From the NCBI RefSeq assembly GCF_012271765.1, contig NZ_VRKO01000016.1:857666-921665 (forward strand): DNA of 64,000 bases. The letters run 5' to 3'. Of the stretch, positions 4,208 to 9,279 are shown piece by piece. The stretch's first letter is position 1; every line of letters starts with the position of its first letter. Below the pieces are notes generated by a model that ran no database searches, had not been told where the DNA came from, and saw only the letters and a program-made list of their open reading frames with translations. Made by a program: the position numbers and the translations under genes. This DNA is from Erwinia rhapontici (lineage in GTDB: Bacteria; Pseudomonadota; Gammaproteobacteria; Enterobacterales; Enterobacteriaceae).

Positions 4208-4933
4208 ATGCTGCAAAATATCCGAATTGTGCTGGTGGAGACCTCTCACACTGGCAACATGGGCTCTGTCGCTCGTGCGATGAAAACCATGGGTTTAACG
4301 AACCTTTATCTGGTCAATCCTCTGGTCAAACCGGACTCACAGGCTATTGCCCTGGCGGCCGGTGCCAGCGATGTGATTGGCGATGCGAAAATTGTCGACA
4401 CTTTCGATGAAGCGATTGCCGGGTGTGGCCTGGTGGTCGGCACCAGTGCGCGCTCGCGCTCTCTGCCGTGGCCGATGCTCGACCCACGCGAGTGCGGTTT
4501 AAAAAGTGTGGAAGAGGGCCAACAGGCGCCTGTTGCGCTGGTATTTGGTCGCGAACGCGTTGGCCTGACCAACGAAGAGTTGCAGAAGTGCCACTACCAC
4601 GTCGCCATTGCTGCTAACCCGGACTACAGCTCGCTGAACCTGGCGATGGCTGTGCAGGTCATTACCTATGAAGTGCGTATGGCCTGGCTGCAGTCGCTGG
4701 AAGCGGAGCAAGAAGCGCCGGTTGAGTCACCTTATCCACTGGTCGATGAGCTTGAGCGCTTCTATCAGCATATGGAGAAAATGATGATCGGCAGCGGTTT
4801 TATCCGTGAAGCCAGCCCGGGGCAGGTGATGAGTAAAATGCGTCGCCTGTTTACCCGTGCTCGCCCTGAACGTGACGAGCTGAATATCCTGCGTGGGATG
4901 CTCTCTTCACTGGAGAAGCCACGGGGCGAGTAA
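4208..4933 (+). CDS. trmJ: tRNA (Cm32/Um32) methyltransferase TrmJ
   Basis: A SPOUT-class methyltransferase of 241 residues, close in length to E. coli TrmJ (about 246), that 2'-O-methylates position 32 of several tRNAs with S-adenosylmethionine. The N-terminus [20 protein letters not shown] is the family signature, and the SPOUT trefoil-knot motifs [13 protein letters not shown] (about residues 114-126) and SLNLAMAVQ (about 140-148) are clear. The C-terminal helical extension is present. It lies immediately upstream of iscR, as in E. coli, with 168 bases between them holding the iscR operator region. Confidence 0.95.
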
Positions 4934-4963
4934 GGGTGTATCGGTGAATAAAATAACAGCATA

Positions 4964-5037
4964 ATAGTTGAGTATTTTACTTGGTTAAATAGTTGAGTGT
5001 TTTAGTAGGTTAAATACTTGACCAATTTAGTCAGGAA
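4964..5037 (+). promoter_or_regulatory. Three tandem IscR type-1-like sites
   Basis: Three related 24-base copies start at 4964, 4989 and 5014, an exact 25-base pitch. Each begins ATA(G/C)TTGA and is centred on an AT-rich TTTA stretch. They resemble the type-1 IscR motif bound by [2Fe-2S]-IscR in the E. coli isc promoter. The third copy, the closest to consensus, contains the putative -35 hexamer. Confidence 0.65.
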
Positions 5038-5046
5038 TGTCAGACT
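5018..5046 (+). promoter_or_regulatory. Probable iscR promoter
   Basis: TTGACC (5018-5023) and CAGACT (5041-5046) are separated by 17 bases, with TGT directly before the -10 as an extended element. The -35 is embedded in the third IscR-like site, which fits autorepression. Confidence 0.5.
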
Positions 5047-5101: not shown

Positions 5102-5599
5102 ATGAGACTGACATCCAAAGGCCGTTATGCTGTTACCGCTATGCTTGATGTTGCACTGCATTCCCATGAAGGCCCGGTGCCTTTAGCGGATATTTCAGAG
5201 CGTCAGGGCATTTCCCTTTCTTATCTTGAGCAGCTGTTCTCCCGTCTGCGTAAGAATGGTCTGGTGGCCAGCGTACGTGGTCCGGGTGGCGGTTATCTGT
5301 TGGGCAAAGGCTCTGATGCCATCGCAGTGGGCGCAGTGATTACTGCCGTTGACGAATCTGTCGATGCCACTAAATGTCAGGGTAAAGAAGGCTGCCAGGG
5401 CGGCGAGCGTTGCCTGACTCACGTGCTGTGGCGTGATCTGAGTGAGCGCATCAGCGACTTCCTCAACAATATTACACTGGCAGAACTGGTCAATAACCAG
5501 GAAATCCTGGAAGTGGCTGACCGTCAGAACAGCAATGAAATCCGTCGTGCGCCAAACGGCCGCATGCAGGAAACAATTAACGTCAATCTGCGCGCCTGA
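5102..5599 (+). CDS. iscR: Fe-S cluster-responsive regulator IscR
   Basis: The 165-residue Rrf2-family regulator has an N-terminal winged helix (recognition region [21 protein letters not shown], about residues 40-60) and the [2Fe-2S] ligands C92, C98, C104 and H107 in the same positions as E. coli IscR. Holo-IscR represses its own operon through type-1 sites, and three such sites lie just upstream; apo-IscR would control type-2 targets such as suf. A strong hairpin terminator follows the gene, so iscR may be largely monocistronic. What is odd is the operon it heads: only iscS follows. IscR here probably senses clusters made by another system, most likely Suf. Confidence 0.97.
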
Positions 5600-5635
5600 T
5601 CGCAGTCTGGGCGGGGTTTGTTCTTCGCCCCCGGA

Positions 5636-5670
5636 AATGAATAAAAGGCCTGACGGGCCTTTTATTCATT
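5636..5670. terminator. Terminator hairpin between iscR and iscS
   Basis: A perfect 15-bp stem (5636-5650 with 5656-5670) around the loop TGACG has A-rich left and T-rich right arms, typical of a bidirectional Rho-independent terminator. It should reduce or stop readthrough from iscR into iscS. Confidence 0.8.
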
Positions 5671-5740
5671 TCTGCTTCCAGCAAAGATTTCAGGGCGCAG
5701 AAGGGCGGCAATCAAGAAACCTCCCGGAGCTTAACGAGCA

Positions 5741-6940
5741 ATGAAATTACCGATTTATCTGGATTATTCCGCCACCACACCCGCCGACCCTCGTGTGGCC
5801 GCAAAAATGATGCAGTATCTGACTCTGGACGGAACCTTCGGTAATCCGGCCTCGCGATCGCATCGTTATGGCTGGCAGTCAGAAGAAGCGGTGGATGTTG
5901 CCCGCAACCAGATTGCAGAGTTAGTGGGCGCTGACCCACGTGAAATCGTCTTTACCTCCGGTGCAACAGAAGCCAACAACCTCGCCATCAAAGGTGCAGC
6001 CACTTTCCATCAGGAAAAGGGTCGTCACATCATCACTTGTACCACGGAGCATAAAGCGGTCCTGGATACCTGTGCTCAGTTAGAGCGTGAGGGATTCAGC
6101 GTCACTTATCTGAACCCGCGCCCTGATGGCACGTTGGATCTGCAACAGCTGACCGCGGCGCTGCGTGATGACACGGTGCTGGTGTCAATTATGCACGTCA
6201 ATAATGAGATCGGGGTGGTGCAGGATATTGCCACTATCGGCGAACTGTGCCGTGAGCGCGGGGTGATTTTCCATGTTGATGCCACGCAGAGTGTGGGTAA
6301 ATTACCTATCGATCTGAGTATGCTGAAAGTCGATCTGATGTCTTTCTCTGCGCATAAAATTTACGGACCGAAAGGCATCGGTGCGCTCTATGTCAGCCGT
6401 GCACCGCGTATCCGTCTGGAAGCCCAGATCCACGGTGGCGGTCACGAACGCGGTATGCGTTCCGGTACGCTGCCGGTGCATCAGATTGTGGGAATGGGTG
6501 AAGCCTATCGCATCGCCAAAGAAGAAATGGCCAGCGAGATGGCACGCCTGGGTGCGCTGCGTAGCCGCCTGTGGGCGGGTATTGGCCATATCGAGGAGGT
6601 GTACCTCAATGGTTCACTGGAGCAAGGTGCGGCGAATATTCTCAACGTCAGTTTTAATTACGTTGATGGTGAATCACTGATTATGGCGCTGAAGGATCTG
6701 GCGGTCTCAACCGGCTCAGCCTGTACCTCTGCCAGTATGGAGCCGTCTTACGTGCTGCGGGCCATTGGTCTCAACGATGAGTTGGCACACAGTTCGATCC
6801 GCTTCTCTCTCGGGCGTTTTACCACCGAAGAAGAGATCGACTACACCATTCAGCTGGTGCAAAAATCCCTTAGCCGTCTGCGTGAGCTCTCCCCTCAATG
6901 GAAAGCGTTTAAAGCCAGCGGTGCTGTTCAGGCAGGTTGA
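5741..6940 (+). CDS. iscS: Cysteine desulfurase IscS
   Basis: A PLP-dependent class V aminotransferase-fold enzyme of 399 residues that removes sulfur from cysteine and hands it on as a persulfide. Key residues keep E. coli numbering: H104 (TEHKA), PLP lysine K206 (SFSAHKIYG) and the mobile-loop C328 ([10 protein letters not shown]). It should still serve tRNA thiolation (TusA, ThiI, MnmA) and thiamine. The start ATG has GGAG about ten bases upstream. Two oddities: the scaffold and chaperone genes that normally follow are missing, and the C-terminus ends [16 protein letters not shown] instead of the conserved tail ending SIEWAHH that contributes to IscU binding in E. coli. Confidence 0.97.
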
Positions 6941-6962
6941 TCCTCACTCCCGCACAAACAGT

Positions 6963-6985
6963 AACGGGCCAGATTCTGGCCCGTT
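6963..6985 (+). terminator. Terminator after iscS
   Basis: AACGGGCCA (6963-6971) pairs with TGGCCCGTT (6977-6985) around the loop GATTC, 22 bases after the iscS stop. It closes the shortened isc unit and separates it from pepB. Confidence 0.6.
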
Positions 6986-7044
6986 CTGCGTAGTACGCAG
7001 CATCCCGCGAAAACATCCCTGTCACATTTCTGTTAGTCTGGTTG

Positions 7045-7050
7045 TACAAT
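7045..7050 (+). promoter_or_regulatory. Possible pepB promoter -10
   Basis: TACAAT at 7045-7050 lies 74 bases before the pepB start, beyond the iscS terminator. No convincing -35 is visible at 16-18 bases. pepB needs a promoter of its own here because the isc genes that precede it in E. coli are gone. Confidence 0.35.
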
Positions 7051-7123
7051 CCTCCTGCGGAAAAATCGCAGCGGCCGGTCAAACCCCGGTCTGAAAGATG
7101 AAATAATGAAAAGGAGCCATGCG

Positions 7124-8413
7124 ATGACCACCTCTATGAATATTACCCTGTCAACGGCTGCGGCCGATCTGCGTTGGGGCGAAAAAGCGATCCTGAGCAG
7201 CAACGACAGCGGCCTGACTATCCATCTTACCGGCAGTGAACCGCTGGCCACTATCCAGCGCGCTGCGCGCAAAATTGATAGCCAGGGTATCCGTCATGTC
7301 AGCCTGAGCGGCGATGGCTGGGATCTGGAGAACAGCTGGGCGTTCTGGCAGGGCTACCGTGGTCCAAAAGGCGAGCGCGAAGTGCAGTGGGCCGCGCTGG
7401 CAGATGCCGAACAGGCGGAGCTGAACAACCGTCTGAAAATTATCGACTGGGTGCGTGACACTATTAACCTGCCCGCTGAAGAGCTGGGGCCGGAACAGTT
7501 AGCCACCCGTGCCATTGACCTGCTGTGTGATGTGGCCTGTGATGCGGTCAGTTACCGCATTACGAAAGGTGATGACCTTAAAAAGCAAAACTATCTGGGG
7601 CTGCATACTGTCGGGCGCGGTTCATCGCGCAGTCCGGTACTGTTGACGCTGGATTATAATCCCGGTGGCAACGATGAAACCCCGGTATACGCCTGCCTGG
7701 TCGGCAAAGGAATCACCTTTGATACCGGCGGATACAGCCTGAAACAGAGCGGCTTTATGGACTCCATGAAGTCGGATATGGGAGGGGCGGCAACGCTGAC
7801 CGGTGCTCTGGCGCTGGCAATCAGCCGTGGTCTGAACAAACGTGTGAAACTGATCCTGTGCTGCGCGGATAATATGGTCAGCGGCAATGCCTTTAAACTG
7901 GGCGACATTATTCGTTACCGCAATGGCAAAACCGTTGAGGTGATGAATACCGATGCTGAAGGCCGTCTGGTACTGGCCGATGGGCTGATTGATGCCAGTG
8001 CGCTTAACCCTGAACTGATTATTGATGCGGCGACCCTGACGGGTGCAGCAAAAACCGCATTAGGTAACGATTACCACGCGTTGTTCAGCTTTGACGATGC
8101 ACTGGCGCAGTCGTTGCTGGAAAGTGCTGCCGGGGAGAACGAGCCGTTCTGGCGTCTGCCGCTGGCGGAGTTCCACCGCAGTCATCTGCCGTCAAATTTT
8201 GCTGATTTGAACAACATTGCCAGCCCGTCGCACTCTGCCGGGGCCAGCACCGCCGCTGCGTTCTTGTCGCATTTCGTGAGTGAATACAAGCAGGGCTGGC
8301 TGCATATCGACTGTTCTGCTACCTACCGTAAAGGTGCCGTGGATCAGTGGTCTGCGGGTGCCACCGGGCTGGGTGTGCGTGCCGTTGCGAACCTGCTGTT
8401 AAACAAAGCGTAA
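7124..8413 (+). CDS. pepB: Peptidase B (leucyl aminopeptidase family)
   Basis: A manganese-dependent M17 aminopeptidase of 429 residues (E. coli 427). The metal and catalytic motifs are intact: [14 protein letters not shown] (lysine and aspartate metal ligands), SDMGGAAT, and [12 protein letters not shown], the M17 signature. The C-terminal catalytic domain follows an N-terminal domain of about 150 residues. I chose ATG 7124 because AAGGAG at 7110-7115 stands eight bases upstream and the protein then aligns with E. coli; the in-frame ATG at 7106 overlaps that site. It is cytosolic, degrading peptides with acidic N-termini. In E. coli it ends the isc gene cluster; here it stands behind an iscS terminator. 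Confidence 0.97.
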
Positions 8414-8499: not shown

Positions 8500-9279
8500 A
8501 TGAACGATCTTAACCCGCGGCTGGAAGAGGTGCTGAAACTGGCAGCAGTAGAGCCGGCGCACCGTCCGGAGTTTTTTGCCCTGCTGATGGATGCCAGCGT
8601 TGTGGTCCCCGGCGAAAGCGCCCAGCCTGAGCAGGCGATCGATGCCAGCACTCCAGTTGATTTACAGCACTGGGAAAAAGAAGACGGCACCAGCATTATT
8701 CCGTTCTTCACCTCAGCGGAAGCACTGCAACAGGCCGTGAGTGGCGAGCAGGCTTATCTGGTGATGCCGGTGCGCACTTTGTTCGAAATGACTCTGGGCG
8801 AAGCCCTGTTTCTGAACCCCAAATTGCCTAACGGCAAAGAGTTTTCTCCGCGTGAAATTGCCCACCTGTTAGATGAGGGCAGCAGTGCTCTCAGCCAGCA
8901 GACGGTGCTGGAAGGCGGAACCTCGCTGTTGCTGTCGGAAATTGCTGAGCCTCCGGCACAGATGATCGATTCGCTGACCCAGCTTTTTGCCAAGTATAAA
9001 ACCGTGCGCCGCGCCTACGTGGCGGAGATCAAAGAACATGCTGACCAGCCCGCTAATCTGCTGATTGGCATTGAAGGCGATGGCGATCTTGAAGCAGTGA
9101 TTCAGGCGGCCGGCAGTGTGGCAACGGATACGCTGCTGGACGATAGCCCAATTGATATTTGCCAGGTCGTGGAAGGGGAGAAAGGTATCAGCCACTTCTT
9201 TATTGCCCATATCACGCCATTCTATGAACGGCGTTGGGGAAGTTTCCTGCGAGATTTCAAAGTCAAAAACATCGATTAA
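8500..9279 (+). CDS. sseB: SseB family protein
   Basis: The 259-residue protein is the enterobacterial SseB, named because extra copies raise serine sensitivity in E. coli; the biochemical function is unknown and it is not the Salmonella type III translocon protein of the same name. The N-terminal SseB domain (residues about 8-125) is followed by the SseB C-terminal domain (about 140-255, with a conserved FFERRWG-like end, here FYERRWGSFLRDF). No signal peptide or membrane segment is seen. It lies between pepB and convergent sseA, as in E. coli. Confidence 0.92.
   Translation: MNDLNPRLEEVLKLAAVEPAHRPEFFALLMDASVVVPGESAQPEQAIDASTPVDLQHWEKEDGTSIIPFFTSAEALQQAVSGEQAYLVMPVRTLFEMTLGEALFLNPKLPNGKEFSPREIAHLLDEGSSALSQQTVLEGGTSLLLSEIAEPPAQMIDSLTQLFAKYKTVRRAYVAEIKEHADQPANLLIGIEGDGDLEAVIQAAGSVATDTLLDDSPIDICQVVEGEKGISHFFIAHITPFYERRWGSFLRDFKVKNID

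Follow-up and report, generated by a model that had tools for sequence, protein, structure and literature searches.

In Escherichia coli, the isc locus (iscRSUA-hscBA-fdx-iscX) is situated between trmJ and pepB, and six genes lie between iscS and pepB in strain K-12. A stretch of 64,000 nucleotides from Erwinia rhapontici, referred to here as the window, carries iscR and iscS at the same position. The question raised by this locus is which machinery then supplies Fe-S clusters, and what a cysteine desulfurase and a cluster-sensing regulator are kept for.

The order trmJ-iscR-iscS-pepB-sseB is that of E. coli, as indicated by the open reading frames and by NCBIfam equivalog models, each scoring above its own cut-off. 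The left flank is formed by trmJ (4208-4933, plus strand; NF011694, 480 bits, cut-off 280), followed by iscR (5102-5599, plus strand; NF008110, 334 bits, cut-off 275) and iscS (5741-6940, plus strand, 399 amino acids; TIGR02006, 708.1 bits, cut-off 643.2). The right flank is formed by pepB (7124-8413, plus strand; NF003450, 764.6 bits, cut-off 437), which in E. coli lies 3' of iscX, and beyond it by sseB (8500-9279). None of iscU, iscA, hscB, hscA, fdx, and iscX was found in the iscS-pepB gap by tblastn with the E. coli proteins (E <= 1e-4). The original prediction, that the locus is cut to iscR and iscS within conserved flanks, is confirmed as a real observation. Among named organisms, E. persicina has the closest IscS (94% identity). 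A plasmid collection gave 65 records, none with 80% query coverage, and the 20 of these that were listed show, wherever features are named, ordinary trmJ, iscR or iscS matches; a scan of the 64-kb window with Rfam returned no family at the gathering score. Between iscR and iscS lies a perfect 16-base inverted repeat (5635-5671, AAATGAATAAAAGGCC, loop TGACG), which may separate iscR transcription from iscS. Hairpins resembling it were seen by eye in the near relatives G005, G020, and G034, and are absent from the other aligned Erwinia rows.

No second isc copy was found elsewhere in the same genome (5.24 Mb, 19 contigs, 100% complete). Genome-wide searches returned no NifU_N match for IscU and no match for IscX or the ISC ferredoxin Fdx, while the top matches for HscB (a J-domain, 21.3 bits) and HscA (DnaK-like, 626 bits) fall below the respective cut-offs of 46.75 and 708.55. 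Of the ISC machinery, the scaffold IscU, the chaperones HscA and HscB, and Fdx are thus all without a match above cut-off, and a second isc copy was rejected on searches that were empty or remained sub-cut-off. All six genes of sufABCDSE were detected by tblastn on the same contig, about 240 kb before the start of the window, which places the genome among those with predicted SUF-only assembly. The genome further encodes a csdA/csdE-like pair on a different contig, a TusA-family gene, and three A-type carrier domains; its ISC-bearing congener G029 has four of the latter, one of which sits inside its isc operon. The evidence supports SUF as the sole complete assembly system detected, in line with the earlier expectation that Suf or another system serves as the main assembly route. 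An assembly gap at the iscS-pepB junction was considered and rejected: iscS adjoins pepB in all 36 IscU-less genomes of the same genus (35 junctions and G027), and a junction common to 36 of 36 genomes makes an assembly error very unlikely.

The reduced locus is widespread among relatives. In a comparison set of 118 related genomes, an IscU-type match is present in 70 and absent from 48, the latter, obtained by subtracting the genomes with a match, being the IscU-less genomes of all tallies below. SufB/D was found in 65 genomes, comprising every IscU-less genome (48/48) and 17 of the 70 IscU-bearing ones; 53 genomes carry IscU only, 17 carry both, and none carries neither. Counts above cut-off reach 65 for HscB, 57 for HscA, 66 for Fdx, and 47 for IscX, each with 0/48 among IscU-less genomes; IscU-less G031 has a sub-cut-off IscX match located at a relic. 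IscX is also absent over cut-off from 23 of the 70 IscU-bearing genomes. The unlinked gene for frataxin, cyaY, follows the same pattern, being present in 59 of the 118 genomes (59/70 IscU-bearing, 0/48 IscU-less); an earlier study reports frataxin only in iscU-carrying genomes (PMC4440780). Within the genus of the window, 36 of 37 genomes lack IscU, and G029 is the sole bearer. Outside the genus, 12 genomes are IscU-less: eleven, several of which are very small, belong to the family of the window, and the twelfth to its order. Among the named genomes, Rouxiella badensis has the same locus arrangement (L084). G100, from the same order, has two IscS-like genes (L161 and L162). One of them shares a single block with iscR and with suf-like genes (sufB, sufC, sufD, sufS, sufE, and an A-type gene), a merged isc-suf locus.

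Remnants at the iscS-pepB junction bear on how the genes were lost. A GC-rich hairpin with a T-run separates fdx from iscX in G029, Mixta, and Tatumella, and many IscU-less Erwinia have a like hairpin (likeness judged by eye) directly 3' of iscS, as does the window at 6963-6985. By place and sequence, the window copy is likely what is left of the terminator that once separated fdx from iscX. A terminator had been predicted at 6963; the hairpin indeed exists, but it is terminator-like on the minus strand only. Further downstream, at 7027-7041 on the plus strand, the window contains TTTCTGTTAGTCTGG, a relic of the iscX 3' end with codons for LLVW and two mismatches to iscX of G029. The stretch occurs once in the window, and 7 of 100 shuffles match it at two or fewer mismatches across 64 kb. 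It is found exactly in 9 of 37 IscU-less junctions, about 96 to 113 bases 5' of pepB, and is unchanged across two Erwinia clades. This constancy prompts the guess that the 15-base relic has a present function, perhaps in a pepB promoter.

The longest iscX relics were found in G017, G019, G023, and G031 (tblastn, E 2e-7 or better), and the stops and frame breaks in these four congeners exclude coding genes. Weaker remnants of the iscX 3' end occur in UBA2655, G014, G007, G012, and G001 (E 1e-5 to 0.007), while tblastn at E <= 0.01 gave no iscX match in the remaining 28 IscU-less junctions (of 37), that of the window included. In G040 (L151) and G062 (L156), very weak iscX-like matches (E 0.03 and 0.4) lie in longer iscS-pepB gaps. 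Because the hairpin and the iscX remnants persist, iscU through fdx appear to have been deleted and iscX to have decayed in place. The notion of a clean deletion, as originally proposed, does not agree with these remnants or with the clear iscX pseudogenes of the four congeners.

Whether ISC was lost once or several times was addressed with two trees. The first (TrmJ, PepB, and SseB; 63 rows) implies no fewer than four state changes and places G029 as sister to G017, G019, G023, and G031 (support 100/94). An independent-pairs run on it, which used the loss label for both traits and therefore serves purely as a count of contrasts, gives four, so few that a sign test cannot reach 0.05. As this tree was too weak to settle one loss versus more, SufB, SufC, and SufD were added (six proteins, 43 rows, 2065 columns), and the sister relation was recovered with support of 98/100. 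If ISC had been lost a single time in the ancestor of Erwinia and G029 had later reacquired the operon by transfer, repeated loss within the genus would not be needed. Such a history accords with the lack of IscU in all sampled congeners except G029, and the first tree did not reject the ISC-less Erwinia as one clade (p 0.0785). Moreover, the weaker iscX remnants of G014, G007, G012, G001, and UBA2655 mean that relics alone do not single out the four sisters of G029. The larger alignment, however, rejects the single clade (p 0.0023), G029 is sister to the four genomes carrying the longest iscX pseudogenes, and the losses in G040/G062 and in G060/Rouxiella fall elsewhere on the first tree. In G029 the isc operon occupies its ancestral place, the unlinked cyaY is kept, and IscS is ancestral at each of the 46 positions broken elsewhere (see below); a regain would need to restore each of these. 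The single loss is accordingly considered unlikely, and repeated loss is more likely than one loss followed by regain, given the tree test, the relics, and the operon place and cyaY of G029.

Changes in IscS itself parallel the loss of its partners. In a first set of loci, an IscS of 404-405 residues with a conserved tail was found in 82/82 loci with iscU and in 0/29 without; in the extended set, the ancestral tail is present in 88/88 loci with iscU and 0/50 without. Loci L020, L021, L026, L037, L038, L040, L043, L047, L058, and L141 were left out as duplicates or partial, and the 50 loci without iscU include near-copies (e.g., L023 and L075), both IscS genes of G100, and G087, which owing to a weak NifU_N match (30.6 bits) counts as IscU-bearing in the tallies of 118 genomes. 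In the window, the codons from residue 386 on (6896-6937, plus strand) encode 14 residues that substitute for the ancestral IscU-docking end, replacing the end of helix 12 and the terminal EWAHH. The protein still scores as a TIGR02006 member with its TusA contacts in place and its tail absent, because the family cut-off does not require the tail. According to the structural account in PMC2854127, the docking site for IscU on E. coli IscS comprises helix 8, Glu347, and helix 12 at the C-terminus (Arg379-Lys391), and IscS without residues 376-404 does not bind IscU. For holo-ferredoxin, the contacts described are Arg112 and Arg116, next to the 220/223/225 patch (PMC3750173); this patch also serves TusA and ThiI (PMC2854127, PMC11302665). 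Arg112 is kept in 88/88 loci with iscU and 0/50 without, being replaced by alanine in the window.

The catalytic residues H104, D180, Q183, K206, and C328 are present in all 50 loci without iscU, and the window retains C328, the PLP lysine K206, and H104. The TusA-contact residues W45, E49, and R55 are found in 50/50 of these loci and D52 in 49/50, all intact in the window. On the ferredoxin side, R116 is kept in 31/50 and R223 in 33/50; the service of the 220/223/225 patch to TusA and ThiI can account for its being mostly retained when R112 is lost. The IscU surface is likewise unchanged in part (G310 in 48/50 and, in helix 8, E311 and L313 in 50/50 and M315 in 46/50), and F89, R340, and others are mixed among the loci without iscU. 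In total, 229 positions are conserved in the IscU-bearing set, and 46 of them are broken in the IscU-less set, with 10/12 in the tail versus 36/217 elsewhere (p 2e-6), so the change extends beyond the ISC contact surfaces. IscS has apparently changed in a largely partner-specific way, and loss of IscU and ferredoxin docking is predicted. An origin of the new C-terminus by fusion with the old fdx end was dismissed, since the tail letters are unlike it by eye. In G060 (L155), two TAA stops are flagged within the IscS match, yet the open reading frame of the locus spans 389 amino acids.

The retention of IscS is best explained by a role as sulfur donor for tRNA thiolation via TusA, as the original prediction had proposed in broader terms. 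Of the 48 IscU-less genomes, 45 have an IscS match at E <= 1e-150, and these same 45 also have a TusA-family match. The three genomes missing both, G041, G042, and G057, measure about 0.5 Mb each; the joint disappearance of the two proteins in these tiny genomes fits a TusA-directed role, as do the preserved main TusA contacts, although the association involves few exceptions, reduced genomes, and a strict threshold (E <= 1e-150). IscS might instead still feed SUF, through SufE or SufBCD directly, its tail having been lost because the scaffold is another one rather than through a turn to TusA. Co-occurrence at the same threshold would fit this as well, since 45 IscU-less genomes out of 48 have both IscS and SUF. 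However, the suf operon already includes sufS and sufE, the TusA contacts are kept, and in the three tiny genomes IscS is missing together with TusA and not with SUF, which renders a continued supply of SUF by IscS highly improbable.

Another view would regard IscS and IscR as leftovers under relaxed selection that are heading for loss. The 46 broken positions out of 229 and the free variation of IscS tails among species could be read in this way. Against mere decay, the catalytic residues together with W45, E49, and R55 are invariant in the 50 loci, stops inside the IscS match (E <= 1e-150) are flagged in G060 and G087 only, and the cluster ligands of IscR are found in 22/22 IscU-less rows, which leaves neutral decay very unlikely.

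The IscR of the window scores above both available cut-offs (NF008110 as given above; TIGR02010, 221.2 bits, cut-off 207.55), and its ligands C92, C98, C104, and H107 (E. coli numbering) are intact. The ligand pattern is shared by 9/9 IscU-bearing rows as well as by the IscU-less rows mentioned above. The promoter region of iscR contains three tandem IscR type-1-like sites on the plus strand (4963-4987, 4988-5012, and 5014-5038), recognized from a repeat pair, a consensus match, and the alignment of relatives. The third copy has two mismatches to the type-1 consensus, a level reached in 0/100 shuffles. By eye, three such sites were also seen in many IscU-less Erwinia and in IscU-bearing G067, and two in G029 and E. 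coli.

The suf promoter differs between the two groups of genomes. The best Fur box near the promoter was scored out of the 14 positions of the Fur-box consensus TGATAATnATTATCA in 14 IscU-bearing rows (E. coli and 13 two-system genomes out of 17) and in 25 of the 48 IscU-less genomes. Scores of at least 12/14 were obtained for 13/14 IscU-bearing rows versus 4/25 IscU-less rows (rank test p 6e-6, with relatives treated as independent and kinship ignored). Exceptions are IscU-less G056 (13/14) and IscU-bearing G067 (9/14), and many of the degenerate boxes still reach 11/14, so Fur may still bind suf. An IscR type-2-like stretch beside the Fur box, CCCTGCAAAACAAGAGGTTGAA, is kept in 22/25 IscU-less rows. 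G067 (L169) combines ISC with a missing iscX and a weak suf Fur box; it is perhaps a lineage at an early stage of an ISC-to-SUF hand-over, although absence of iscX alone is common.

The regulatory description in PMC8593673 has the suf operon of E. coli repressed by holo-Fur and activated by apo-IscR. The same source describes IscR as conserved among species with ISC machinery, whereas in the present genomes it is kept without that machinery. An IscR whose pathway has lost its output, as originally suggested, is at odds with these data: because the cluster ligands, the sites before iscR, and the type-2-like stretch before suf are all kept, IscR would not be orphaned, and its conservation speaks against a mere leftover. 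These sequence features suggest a suf operon less tied to iron and a SUF-matured IscR. If IscR is the sensor of a SUF-only cell, SUF must mature it, unlike in the E. coli picture. That E. coli IscR is described as a poor substrate of SUF (PMC8593673) is hard to reconcile with an intact holo-IscR circuit in these genomes.

Taken together, the isc locus has probably been dismantled, with SUF making the clusters, IscS kept as TusA donor, and IscR kept as Fe-S sensor; we assign this reading a probability of roughly 0.85. The scaffold genes iscU, iscA, hscB, hscA, and fdx would have been deleted with iscX decaying in place, and the unlinked cyaY would have been lost as well. Fe-S clusters would be made by SUF (sufABCDSE) and the remaining A-type carriers, while IscS would act as a cysteine desulfurase passing sulfur to TusA for 2-thiouridine in tRNA and for other thio-cofactors. 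Released from its partners IscU and ferredoxin, IscS has lost its IscU-docking tail and the Arg112 ferredoxin contact. [2Fe-2S]-IscR would repress its own promoter through the type-1 sites, and IscR would activate suf through the conserved type-2-like site; a weakened Fur box would allow SUF to serve as housekeeping machinery in iron-replete cells. Of this reading, the gene content, the relics, the sequence changes, and the tree are observed, whereas the protein interactions, the promoter activity, and the maturation of IscR by SUF are inferred. Frataxin loss, decay of IscS docking, probably repeated losses, and the weakened suf Fur box go beyond the original prediction. A wider generalization, that enterobacteria repeatedly moved Fe-S assembly from ISC to SUF by one route (weaker Fur control, loss of ISC and frataxin, a TusA-directed IscS, and IscR as sensor), has about an even chance of being correct.

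Several known systems resemble this arrangement in part. The E. coli isc locus shares the trmJ-pepB position, IscR and IscS above cut-offs, and type-1-like sites, whereas here the six genes after iscS, the IscS tail with R112, and frataxin are gone. YrvO of Bacillus subtilis is a cysteine desulfurase dedicated to tRNA thiolation. The role proposed for IscS is likewise that of a tRNA sulfur donor without a scaffold partner, but it would derive from a hub enzyme through loss of docking surfaces. E. coli strains with isc or iscUA deleted live on SUF. In these strains, as is proposed here, SUF supports growth and IscR is the activator; the present case differs in having arisen in nature and lasted long, and in its altered suf Fur box and trimmed IscS. 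A recent account (PMC11559095) states that most bacteria have one assembly system, most often SUF, and treats enterobacteria as the model with two. Staphylococcus aureus and Mycobacterium tuberculosis appear there as SUF-only species and share SUF as sole assembly system with the present genome, in which, by contrast, this state is derived from a two-system one, probably more than once, and has left IscR, IscS, and relics behind. Titles and abstracts listed by searches of an open-licence library yielded no report of ISC loss in Erwinia; a large phylogenomic survey cited by PMC11559095 may tabulate the absence. The SUF-only end state is therefore known, and what appears new to us is the derived, relic-bearing route together with the matching changes in IscS and suf.

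Enterobacteria are taught to rely on ISC for housekeeping, with SUF as a stress back-up, yet nearly all sampled members of Erwinia, a plant-associated genus, and some other lineages appear to depend on the back-up alone. The losses constitute natural experiments that indicate which part of IscS serves which partner and tie frataxin to ISC, and they make it testable how the Fe-S sensor IscR works without its usual maturation machine.
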